A program made the position numbers and the translations under genes. The notes beneath the pieces were generated by a model. The model did no database searches and was not told the origin of the DNA. It was given only the letters and a program-made list of their open reading frames with translations. Below are positions 38,187-52,053 of a stretch of 64,000 nt of DNA, piece after piece (the stretch's first letter is position 1; each line of letters starts with the position of its first letter). This DNA is from Streptomyces canus (lineage in GTDB: Bacteria > Actinomycetota > Actinomycetes > Streptomycetales > Streptomycetaceae): the NCBI RefSeq assembly GCF_030816965.1, contig NZ_JAUSYQ010000002.1, positions 4,995,501 through 5,059,500 of the forward strand, read 5' to 3'.

Positions 38187-39119
38187 ATGCCAGCGAGCTA
38201 TGCCTATCTCGGCCCTGAGGGCACCTTCACCGAAGTCGCGCTGCGAACGCTTCCCGAGGCGGCGACCCGGGAGCTGATCCCCTACGTGTCGGTGCAGTCC
38301 GCGCTGGACGCGGTGCGCGCGGGTGAGGCCGAGGCCGCGTTCGTGCCGATCGAGAACTCCGTCGAGGGCGGCATCACCACCACCCTCGACGAACTGGTCG
38401 CGGGCGCCCCGCTGATGATCTACCGCGAGGTGCTGCTGTCGATCACCTTCGCGCTGCTGGCCAGGCCGGGCACGGAGCTGACCGACATCAAGACGGTCTC
38501 GGCGCACCCGGCCGCCCAGCCGCAGGTGCGCAACTGGCTGAAGACGCATCTTCCGGATGCCCACTGGGAGTCGGCCGCCTCCAACGCGGACGCGGCCCGG
38601 CTGGTCCAAGAGGGCCAGTACGACGCGGCCTTCGCCGGCGAGTTCGCGGCCGCCCGGTACGGCCTTCAGGCGCTGGAGACCGGGATCCACGACGCCGAGA
38701 ACGCGCAGACGCGGTTCGTGCTGGTCGGCCGCCCGGCCCGGCCCGCGGCACCGACCGGCGCCGACAAGACCTCCGTCGTGTTGTGGCAGCGCGACGACCA
38801 CCCCGGCGGGCTGCGTGACCTGCTGGGCGAGTTCGCCACCCGCGGTATCAACCTGATGCTGCTGCAGTCCCGGCCCACGGGTGCGGGTATCGGCAACTAC
38901 TGCTTCTGCATCGACGCCGAGGGCCACATCACCGACCGCCGGGTGGCGGAGGCGCTGATGGGGCTGAAGCGGATCTGCCGAGAAGTGCGGTTCCTCGGTT
39001 CGTACCCGCGTGCGGACAAGGAACCGGTGGACCTGCGGGCGCCGCTGACCGGCACCTCGGACGAGGAGTTCATGGCGGCCTCGGACTGGGTGGCCCGGTG
39101 CCAGGACGGGCGCTTCTGA
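38187..39119 (+). CDS. pheA: Prephenate dehydratase
   Basis: The product has 310 residues. The catalytic PDT domain (about 1-185) opens YAYLGPEGTFTEVALRTLPE, has VPIENSVEGGITTTLDEL and ends with the Thr-Arg-Phe motif in AENAQTRFVLVG. A C-terminal ACT domain (about 200-275: GGLRDLLGEFATRGINLMLL, QSRPTG) binds phenylalanine for feedback inhibition. It converts prephenate to phenylpyruvate, the committed step to phenylalanine. There is no chorismate-mutase domain, as usual for actinobacteria. The ATG at 38187 follows a GTGAGGTC stretch. Confidence 0.95.
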   Translation: MPASYAYLGPEGTFTEVALRTLPEAATRELIPYVSVQSALDAVRAGEAEAAFVPIENSVEGGITTTLDELVAGAPLMIYREVLLSITFALLARPGTELTDIKTVSAHPAAQPQVRNWLKTHLPDAHWESAASNADAARLVQEGQYDAAFAGEFAAARYGLQALETGIHDAENAQTRFVLVGRPARPAAPTGADKTSVVLWQRDDHPGGLRDLLGEFATRGINLMLLQSRPTGAGIGNYCFCIDAEGHITDRRVAEALMGLKRICREVRFLGSYPRADKEPVDLRAPLTGTSDEEFMAASDWVARCQDGRF

Positions 39120-39142
39120 CCTGTCTTACCTGCAGATTTTAG

Positions 39143-39482
39143 TTATCCACAGAAGTTATCCACAAGCCTGCGTCTCGACCTGGGGACAAGTCGACACTGA
39201 AGCGTGGCCCTGTCGACAAATCGTCCTACGGACCCCTCCGGCGTTCACAGGCGCGCACATCACCCTTCGTCCGTTCTTTTCCCTTGGGTAACCCTTTGGA
39301 GTGACCGCTTTCCACTCGAAAGTAGGGGTAGATGTGGGTTTACGTGGGGAATCCTCGGCGTGATCCCCAAGTTTCGGAGTGATCAATTCCGAAATCCACA
39401 GATCCTCCGCACAGCCTGTGGATAACTTTCCGAGGGGTGGGGACTCCTGTGGACAACCGTGCGCCAAGTCCCGTTCTCCACA
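39143..39482. other. Cluster of DnaA boxes between pheA and serS
   Basis: The 531-bp gap has no gene. It contains TTATCCACA at 39143-39151, 39156-39164 and (reverse) 39417-39425, and TTGTCCACA (reverse) at 39448-39456. Near-matches are TTGTCCCCA (reverse, 39181-39189), TTGTCGACA (reverse, 39211-39219) and TTCTCCACA (39474-39482). The first two perfect boxes are 13 bp apart, on the same face of about one helical turn. This is well above chance in GC-rich DNA. It is probably a DnaA-binding locus outside oriC, of the kind reported near oriC in S. coelicolor. Confidence 0.8.
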
Positions 39483-39650
39483 AGGGAGTCCAGTCAACCC
39501 GACTCCTCGCGCATGCTTCGTCCCGGGGACACCCGGTGCTTTTCATTGACACACACCGCAATTCACCCATAACGGAACGTAAGCGGCGATTCGCTACTGC
39601 TGGGAATAGTGAGTCGTGGGCCGTATCCCCGCACCGGTAGCCTTGACCGC

Positions 39651-40928
39651 GTGATTGACCTTCGCCTGCTCCGTGAGGACCCCGACCGAGTGCGCGCCTC
39701 GCAGCGCGCCCGTGGAGAGGACGTCGCCCTCGTCGACGCCCTCCTGTCTGCCGACGAGCGGCGCAGGTCGTCCGGCGTCCGCTTCGACGAGCTGCGTTCC
39801 GAGCAGAAGTCGCTCGGCAAGCTCATCCCCAAGGCCACTCCGGAGGAGCGCGCCGAGCTCCTGAAGAAGGCGGAGCAGCTCAAGGCGGACGTCAAGGAAG
39901 CCGAGGCCGCGCAGAACGACGCCGACGAGGAGACCAAGCGCCTCGCGTCGCAGCTCGGCAACCTCGTCCACCCCGACGTCCCCGTGGGCGGCGAGGAGGA
40001 CTTCGTCGTCCTGGAGACGCACGGCACCATCCGCGACTTCGGCGCCGAGGGCTTCGAGCCCAAGGACCACCTGGAGCTCGGCGAGGCGCTGGGCGCCATC
40101 GACGTCGAGCGCGGCGCCAAGGTGTCCGGCTCCCGCTTCTACTACCTGACGGGCGTCGGCGCCCTGCTGGAGCTCGCCCTCGTCAACGCGGCGATCGCGC
40201 AGGCCACCGAGGCGGGCTTCACCCCGATGCTCACCCCCGCGCTGGTCCGCCCGCGCGCCATGGAGGGCACCGGCTTCCTCGGCCAGGCCGCGGAGAACGT
40301 CTACCACCTGGAGAAGGACGACTACTACCTGGTCGGCACCTCCGAGGTCCCGCTCGCCGCGTACCACATGGACGAGATCCTCGACGCCGACAAGCTCCCG
40401 CTGCGCTACGCCGGTTTCTCGCCGTGCTTCCGCCGCGAGGCCGGCACCTACGGCAAGGACACCCGGGGCATCTTCCGCGTGCACCAGTTCGACAAGGTCG
40501 AGATGTTCTCGTACGTCGCTCCCGAGGACGCGGAGAACGAGCACAGGCGGCTCCTGGACTGGGAGAAGCAGTGGCTGACCGGCCTGGAGCTGCCGTTCCA
40601 GGTCATCGACGTGGCCTCGGGCGACCTCGGCGCCTCGGCGTCCCGCAAGTACGACTGCGAGGCGTGGATCCCGACCCAGGGCAAGTACCGCGAGCTGACC
40701 TCGGCCTCCAACTGCGACGGCTTCCAGGCGCGCCGCCTGTCCGTCCGTATGCGTGACGGCAAGAAGGTCCAGCCGCTGGCGACGCTCAACGGCACGCTGT
40801 GCGCCGTACCGCGCACCATCGTGGCGATCCTGGAGAACCACCAGCTGGCCGACGGCTCGGTGCGGGTGCCCGAGGTGCTGCGTCCGTACCTGGGCGGCCG
40901 GGAGCTGCTGGAACCGGTCGCCAAGTGA
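39651..40928 (+). CDS. serS: Seryl-tRNA synthetase
   Basis: The product has 425 residues. The N-terminal tRNA-binding coiled coil (about 1-110) begins [20 protein letters not shown]. The class II core follows: motif 1 near [20 protein letters not shown], motif 2 ([20 protein letters not shown], then [12 protein letters not shown]), and motif 3 ([20 protein letters not shown]). It charges tRNA-Ser with serine. The GTG at 39651 is chosen because the family begins VIDLRLLR; no good ribosome binding site is seen. The stop overlaps the next gene's GTG (GTGA). Confidence 0.95.
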
Positions 40929-46331: not shown

Positions 46332-46358
46332 TTTTCCACATCGGAGGGCTTTTCCACA
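46332..46358. other. Two DnaA-box-like sequences (TTTTCCACA)
   Basis: TTTTCCACA occurs at 46332-46340 and 46350-46358, each one base from TTATCCACA and spaced 18 bp apart. They lie in the gap between the divergent ABC operon and the M24 gene. Affinity for DnaA would be lower than for perfect boxes. Confidence 0.4.
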
Positions 46359-50864: not shown

Positions 50865-50918
50865 TTGTCCACAGAAACGCCAAGTAGCCTGTGGATAACT
50901 ACAGTTGGTTGTGGATCA
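50865..50918. other. Second group of DnaA boxes
   Basis: TTGTCCACA at 50865-50873, TTATCCACA (reverse) at 50890-50898 and the one-mismatch TGATCCACA (reverse) at 50910-50918 lie within 54 bp of the 121-bp gap between the MerR and kptA genes. Confidence 0.7.
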
Positions 50919-52039: not shown

Positions 52040-52053
52040 GTTTCACGTGAAAC
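52040..52053. promoter_or_regulatory. parS site (perfect)
   Basis: GTTTCACGTGAAAC is an exact 14-bp match to the ParB-binding parS consensus of Streptomyces and many other bacteria. It lies between the hypothetical gene and the luciferase-like gene. Confidence 0.92.

Follow-up and report, generated by a model that had tools for sequence, protein, structure and literature searches.

A conserved DnaA-box cluster between pheA and serS in Streptomyces: a probable datA-like control site near oriC

Three clusters of DnaA boxes, H69, H24 and D78, were reportedly described in Streptomyces coelicolor by Smulczyk-Krawczyszyn et al. in 2006; the names are believed to be those of cosmids, and D78 is said in that paper to show a higher affinity for DnaA than oriC, with its deletion leading to more replication. 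Passages in three further texts ascribe to the S. coelicolor DnaA-box clusters a datA-like restraint of initiation, with the 2006 study as their reference (PMC5742627, PMC10950094, PMC4585315). The datA locus of Escherichia coli is a non-coding group of DnaA boxes away from oriC that keeps both its box spacing and its oriC distance; it has five boxes, with an IHF site between the second and the third, and acts by ATP hydrolysis (PMC4585315). The DnaA-box clusters of Bacillus subtilis are stated to repress untimely initiation (Okumura et al. 2012, as cited), which is also the role proposed below for the gap between pheA and serS of Streptomyces canus. Like datA, this gap is non-coding, lies outside oriC at a distance that is conserved, and has boxes above chance in density and constrained in their spacing; like D78, it is a Streptomyces cluster near oriC and one of few origin-proximal clusters. 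Its boxes, unlike those of datA, fall into two groups that keep helical register across a separation of about 260 bp. We know of no binding consensus for Streptomyces sIHF. The new parts are the geometry of the site and its spread across the family; its family-wide conservation, its helical phasing and its overlap with an ScbR2 site were found in the present analysis.

The window, that is, the whole stretch of DNA analysed, comprises 64,000 nucleotides (C2:4995501-5059500 of the genome). The pheA-serS gap within it is non-coding, 531 bp long, with a G+C content of 57%, and contains (i) four TTRTCCACA boxes, (ii) one TTCTCCACA, (iii) two one-mismatch boxes and (iv) five two-mismatch matches, scored against TTVTCCACA. 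A sequence-only reading of the window had listed three perfect TTATCCACA, one TTGTCCACA and near-matches in 340 bp between genes it took for pheA and serS; the re-scan returned exactly these coordinates, and Pfam gives prephenate dehydratase and seryl-tRNA synthetase for the flanking genes. The features, in window positions, are as follows.

38187–39119, + strand: pheA, prephenate dehydratase, left neighbour (open reading frame; Pfam PF00800 and PF01842)
39143–39151, + strand: DnaA box 1, TTATCCACA, left group; majority letters in 0.65–0.98 of 103 aligned gaps
39156–39164, + strand: DnaA box 2, TTATCCACA, left group, near invariant; mean conservation 0.996
39174–39196, no strand: conserved block CTCGACCTGGGGACAAGTCGACA; anchor M1 is 39180–39196
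39181–39189, − strand: one-mismatch box TTGTCCCCA, inside the CTCGACCTGGGGACAAGTCGACA block (motif scan)
39211–39222, − strand: conserved block with the one-mismatch box TTGTCGACA (39211), overlapping GTCGACAAATC (39212–39222) (scan and alignment)
39257–39284, + strand: segment most similar to the ScbR2 site published for S. coelicolor (17 of 28 letters), with the sub-stretch CACCCTTCGTCC kept
39372–39393, no strand: dyad TTTCGGAGTGATCAATTCCGAA, 22 bp, beside the right box group, moderately conserved and kept in many species (alignment)
39392–39427, no strand: core of the right group, namely the weak box AAATCCACA (39392, + strand), TCCGCACAG and then a perfect box; anchor B starts at 39412
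39417–39425, − strand: perfect box TTATCCACA of the right group, unchanged in 103 of 103 aligned gaps
39448–39456, − strand: DnaA box TTGTCCACA; mean conservation 0.85
39474–39482, + strand: DnaA box TTCTCCACA, poorly conserved; mean conservation 0.57
39545–39552, + strand: −35-like element ATTGACAC upstream of serS (alignment)
39638–39643, + strand: −10-like TAGCCT, 7 bases ahead of the serS GTG and highly conserved (alignment)
39651–40928, + strand: serS, seryl-tRNA synthetase, right neighbour (Pfam PF00587 and PF02403)

The left group comprises boxes 1 and 2 and the two near-boxes, and the right group the boxes at 39392, 39417 and 39448. Two other contents of the gap were considered and rejected: an RNA gene, no Rfam family reaching its gathering score in 38900–39800 and no tRNA being found in the gap, and a 113-aa reverse open reading frame (39156–39497), unlikely to be coding because indels of 10–11 bp among the relatives break its frame.

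The density of exact boxes in the gap is above chance. The 64-kb window holds seven TTRTCCACA against 0.22 expected, the largest count in 100 shuffles being two, and the four of the gap compare with at most one (mean 0.007) in 4000 dinucleotide shuffles. A scan of the whole genome (10.66 Mb, two contigs), as proposed by the sequence-only reading, counted 65 TTRTCCACA and 38 TTCTCCACA and identified the pheA-serS gap as the densest exact-box cluster: four TTRTCCACA per 340 bp occur there only, three in one place and two in three places, so that the outcome named as refuting a special site, a comparable density of boxes at numerous random places, was not encountered. One of the five genome places with at least two TTRTCCACA per 340 bp also lies in the window, at 50865–50918, where three DnaA-type boxes (TTGTCCACA, TTATCCACA and TGATCCACA) fall within 54 bp directly upstream of a gene for a Tpt1/KptA RNA 2'-phosphotransferase (PF01885).

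The cluster is located about 84 kb from oriC, the latter placed between dnaA (by Pfam) and dnaN (by eye) at about C2:5118.7-5119.6 kb; 83.5 kb separate the serS start from the dnaA end. Of the 65 TTRTCCACA of the genome, 16, including the four of the pheA-serS gap, are no more than 110 kb away from oriC, compared with 1.3 expected. This place is fixed: in Streptomyces assemblies of one or two contigs the serS-dnaA distance ranges from 77.8 to 137.6 kb (median 89.6), both genes being on the same strand in 25 of 25, and it ranges from 68.0 to 111.0 kb in five genomes from other genera, with opposite strands in two. Other clusters around oriC stand about 35 kb from it, by a dnaB-like gene, and about 22 kb from it, by a rhomboid gene.

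The first of these (L004:3497-3759, C2:5083496-5083758) comprises two exact TTVTCCACA and four one-mismatch boxes beside the start of the dnaB-like gene, taken by eye for that of the replicative helicase. Its region was searched in 61 Streptomyces genomes, 60 of which matched, and the 30 loci taken keep either two (22 loci) or three (8 loci) TTVTCCACA, a pattern that might reflect DnaA regulation of helicase supply; a stretch of 43 bases at C2:4845283-4845325 is 91% identical, on the other strand, to bases 64–106 of the dnaB-side query. The second (L002:8956-9165, C2:5140955-5141164) is the second densest TTRTCCACA cluster of the genome, with three in 210 bp, and directly follows the rhomboid-family gene (PF01694) on the other side of oriC; the gene after it is presumably crgA. 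Other repeated elements of the region include exact GTTTCACGTGAAAC sites, which we take to be parS-type sites, at window positions 52040, 57541 and 57577 and in the stretches L004, L005 and L007, around oriC, as well as a one-mismatch GTTTCACGTGAAAC site some 2 kb away from the DnaA-box cluster (36991), and two TTTTCCACA direct repeats 18 bp apart at 46332 and 46350.

Compared to the pheA-serS gap, the Streptomyces oriC is built from many, mostly inexact boxes. The 21 oriCs surveyed contain no more than two exact TTRTCCACA (none in 13), yet 10–18 boxes at up to one mismatch (15 in the S. canus dnaA-dnaN gap), whereas the pheA-serS gap has few but exact boxes, two to five in each of the 201 gaps. 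Both nevertheless consist of a two-part DnaA-box region, and across the 21 oriCs (14–19 with both anchors present) a single interior spacing varies by more than one base, and does so by exactly 10 bp (58 in 4, 68 in 14). Loops formed by DnaA appear in electron micrographs in about a third of DNA molecules, the S. coelicolor oriC being named among such origins in the passage concerned (PMC5043019). From the exactness of the boxes we infer that the gap would bind DnaA more tightly than oriC; this ranking carries a reservation, since one review gives the perfect box of Streptomyces as TT(G/C)TCCACA (PMC4285127), whereas most exact boxes of the gap are TTATCCACA, which conforms to the TT(G/A)TCCACA that another text calls the classic box (PMC4210621).

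The same comparison bears on the idea that the gap is a cryptic or former replication origin, for which its box cluster and its lower G+C content would speak. Base composition does not argue against it, as the most AT-rich 30 bp of the gap reach 70% (Streptomyces median 63%) versus 57% at oriC (median 57% over 21). This richest stretch, however, consists of boxes 1 and 2 themselves, and the gap lies 84 kb from the dnaA-dnaN origin instead of in the usual place beside these genes, which makes a cryptic origin very improbable.

Comparison of the region upstream of serS across Streptomyces, another check put forward with the sequence-only reading, shows exact boxes at every locus of the genus that was compared. 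Orthologous gaps were gathered by means of SerS from the best 80 of 545 named relatives and from all 121 genomes of an even draw of the genus, which includes the genome of the window, giving 201 Streptomyces loci and 193 distinct gaps; at two loci (L129 and L236) no pheA was found upstream, and up to 1300 bp upstream were counted instead. All 201 keep two to five exact TTRTCCACA (two in 32, three in 104, four in 63 and five in 2). In addition, the 16 other genera of the family (g2–g17) were all covered by 29 of 80 drawn genomes, and 26 of these 29 loci have two to four exact boxes, the three without belonging to genera g2 and g5. Exact TTRTCCACA was found in none of seven g2 and g5 genomes within 1.5 kb after pheA, the whole pheA-serS stretch having been read in six of them. 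Beyond the family, none of 14 loci (15 drawn genomes) from two other families of the order has an exact TTRTCCACA within 5 kb upstream of serS, pheA being found next to serS in only one of the 14, and none was found at 20 loci taken from 93 matching genomes outside the order; seven of these 20 loci have pheA upstream, and the other 13 were read for 700 bp only. Most Streptomycetaceae thus carry the cluster, which was apparently either gained after g2 and g5 had branched off or lost in these two genera; its presence in most sampled genera, together with the failure to find it in g2, g5 and the sister families, means that the origin of the site can be placed.

Within the gap, conservation is concentrated on the boxes. 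When 103 distinct gaps are aligned, mean conservation is 0.91 over the columns of seven boxes (39474 left out), compared with 0.70 for the rest of the core and 0.56 from the core to serS; it reaches 99.6% in box 2 (39156) and 100% in the right box (39417). Outside the consensus boxes, conservation extends to CTCGACCTGGGGACAAGTCGACA, GTCGACAAATC and TCCACAG (39395–39401), which covers most of the weak box. The boxes at 39143 and 39474 are less conserved and vary freely between species, as would be expected of chance boxes kept by shared ancestry and devoid of function; box 2 and the right box stay constant while their flanks do not, and the length changes between them are phased, which leaves this explanation with next to no probability. 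The site is real and conserved, and very likely a functional DnaA control site.

The spacing between the two groups was measured from M1 (39180) to B (39412), no match to one or the other being found at 15 of 230 loci (6 of the 201 Streptomyces loci). At 195 of the 201 Streptomyces loci this distance is 221, 228–232, 238–243, 249–253 or 260–264 bp, with four outlying distances of 155, 156, 275 and 285 bp. The lengths thus cluster at 221, 231, 241, 251 and 261 bp, with a Rayleigh R of 0.86 at a period of 10.6 bp, or of 0.64 at 10.7 bp if each distinct length is counted once. Independent contrasts were obtained by greedy pairing on a FastTree phylogeny of serS, branch support not being used, and contrasts below 4 bp were dropped (21 of 49 for M1-B, 28 of 83 for B-serS and 14 of 84 for pheA-M1). 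The 28 contrasts retained for M1-B give a mean cosine of 0.59, a value reached by none of 20,000 randomised sets in which each difference was shifted at random by up to 6 bp (P about 5e-5); with resampled control differences as the null, P is 2.5e-4. All phasing statistics refer to Streptomyces, the 29 loci of other genera being left out, four of which had a wrong anchor and a negative distance. The phasing was first noticed in loci L009–L118 and recorded before the remaining loci were measured; in the later-fetched loci (L119–L138 and L206–L276) it recurs with P 0.0003 over 17 contrasts, in a split test made afterwards and with the box positions of L119–L138 already visible before the phasing measurement. 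By eye, insertions of 10–11 and 21–22 bp occur at several different places in the spacer and are not one repeat.

Because the left-right spacer varies in steps of about 10.6 bp, a DnaA-bridged loop is suggested. Among the control intervals, no phasing was detected between pheA and M1 (70 contrasts, P 0.67; later loci P 0.28) or between serS and the next gene (17 contrasts, P 0.82), and the interval between the Dyp peroxidase gene and pheA is borderline (P 0.07 over 13 contrasts, which come from 36 of 80 loci, with 9.5 as the best period) and not clearly free of a general bias towards indels of 10–11 bp. The B-serS interval is itself phased, with a period of 11.1 bp (55 contrasts of 83, P about 5e-5; later loci P 0.0036), as is the interval from TTGAC to serS (window 39545–39651; 36 contrasts, period about 11.4, P 1e-4), which weakens the reading of the phasing as DnaA's alone and leaves room for a promoter role; the TTGAC-serS phasing hints at a face-of-helix-dependent activator or at twin promoters of serS.

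Such a role would make the boxes elements of transcriptional control, through which DnaA regulates serS and links replication to translation capacity, possibly alongside a brake on initiation, and the phasing would then stem from contact of bound DnaA with RNA polymerase at the serS promoter. Both proposals, the regulatory role and this account of the phasing, seem unlikely to us. Besides the phased intervals, they can draw on the conserved promoter-like sequence at the end of the gap, where TAGCCT before the serS GTG likely marks a leaderless promoter. The boxes, however, lie about 195–510 bp upstream of the serS start codon in the S. canus genome, and between B and TTGAC the phasing does not reach significance (P 0.08 over 15 contrasts, drawn from 127 loci). 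Moreover, the boxes do not stay beside serS in three genera: in L141 and L142 (g3), L143 (g4) and L156 (g15) pheA and serS are 1.5–2.1 kb apart, and the exact boxes are found 52–389 bp after pheA and more than 1.1 kb from serS. In L141, L143 and L156 a long reverse-strand reading frame in between, polysaccharide-deacetylase-like in L141 and L143 and PAP2/lipid-kinase-like in L156 (by eye), points toward pheA and leaves the boxes between convergent ends. Since a gene parts the boxes from serS in three genera, the cluster is not simply a serS promoter. Finally, ScbR2 bound in the S. coelicolor gap leaves serS expression nearly unchanged, with a ratio of 0.947 in the data given for serS, which say nothing direct on DnaA (PMC4595836).

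That observation leads to the S. coelicolor counterpart, the gap between SCO3962 (pheA; passage in PMC6585502) and SCO3961 (serS; passage in PMC4595836), which is homologous to the S. canus gap. In S. coelicolor, serS is among the ScbR2 targets identified by ChIP-seq and confirmed by gel shift, with a predicted 28-base site (PMC4595836). This 28-mer, from upstream of the S. coelicolor serS, differs from its counterpart in locus L135 at a single position (27 of 28 matching), inside the M1-B spacer, and occurs with up to five mismatches in 24 of the 201 gaps; as its best match in the S. canus gap is 17 of 28, the ScbR2 site may not be kept there. The conjecture that the gap is the equivalent of D78 has gained from these results: the homologous S. 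coelicolor gap is anchored by the match to L135, and the cluster is the densest exact one of its genome, lies 84 kb from oriC and has an orthologue at each of the Streptomyces loci fetched. Equivalence with the S. coelicolor D78 cluster is the most likely identity of the site.

Considering this evidence together, the pheA-serS gap is probably a control site on the chromosome that binds DnaA, corresponds to D78 and acts as a datA-like brake on initiation. The reading builds on (i) exact-consensus boxes, more exact than those of oriC, (ii) a fixed origin-proximal place, (iii) retention in almost all Streptomycetaceae sampled and (iv) a left-right spacing in helix register. DnaA very likely binds the left and right groups, judging from their sequence; DnaA-DnaA contacts would then join the groups, in the way reported for the two halves of the S. 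coelicolor oriC, and so form a loop that spans the 261 bp between box 2 and the right box, or about 25 helical turns. The complex would hold, and perhaps inactivate, DnaA soon after the site has been replicated and so restrain re-initiation at oriC; in S. coelicolor, binding of an ScbR2-type regulator in the loop might, speculatively, alter the complex with developmental stage.

Whether the site does more than hold DnaA, by promoting its ATP hydrolysis as E. coli datA does or by reactivating it in the manner of DARS, is a matter on which we are doubtful, while granting it some chance. The fixed order and spacing of the boxes resemble the strict spacing set out for datA and DARS in the sections on these sites (PMC4585315); sequence cannot tell hydrolysis from plain holding. 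The effect that deletion of D78 reportedly has, namely more initiation, fits datA and titration alike and goes against DARS.

For the brake on initiation, an additional element can be put forward tentatively, with less confidence than the brake itself: that the family-wide loop, with two strong box groups on the same DNA face about 25 turns apart, contains, at least in S. coelicolor and its near relatives, a docking site for ScbR2-type regulators, ScbR2 being a gamma-butyrolactone-receptor homologue, through which a signal would tune DnaA holding and couple replication to development. If so, the hold on DnaA could become looser or tighter in response to an antibiotic or quorum-type signal.

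How origin firing is limited in Streptomyces, with many chromosomes per hyphal compartment, is poorly understood. A conserved origin-near DnaA site with a measurable geometry offers a simple handle on this question, as changes of the spacer by half versus whole helical turns would separate a loop from titration, and the ScbR2 site inside the S. coelicolor cluster provides a testable link from signalling to replication.
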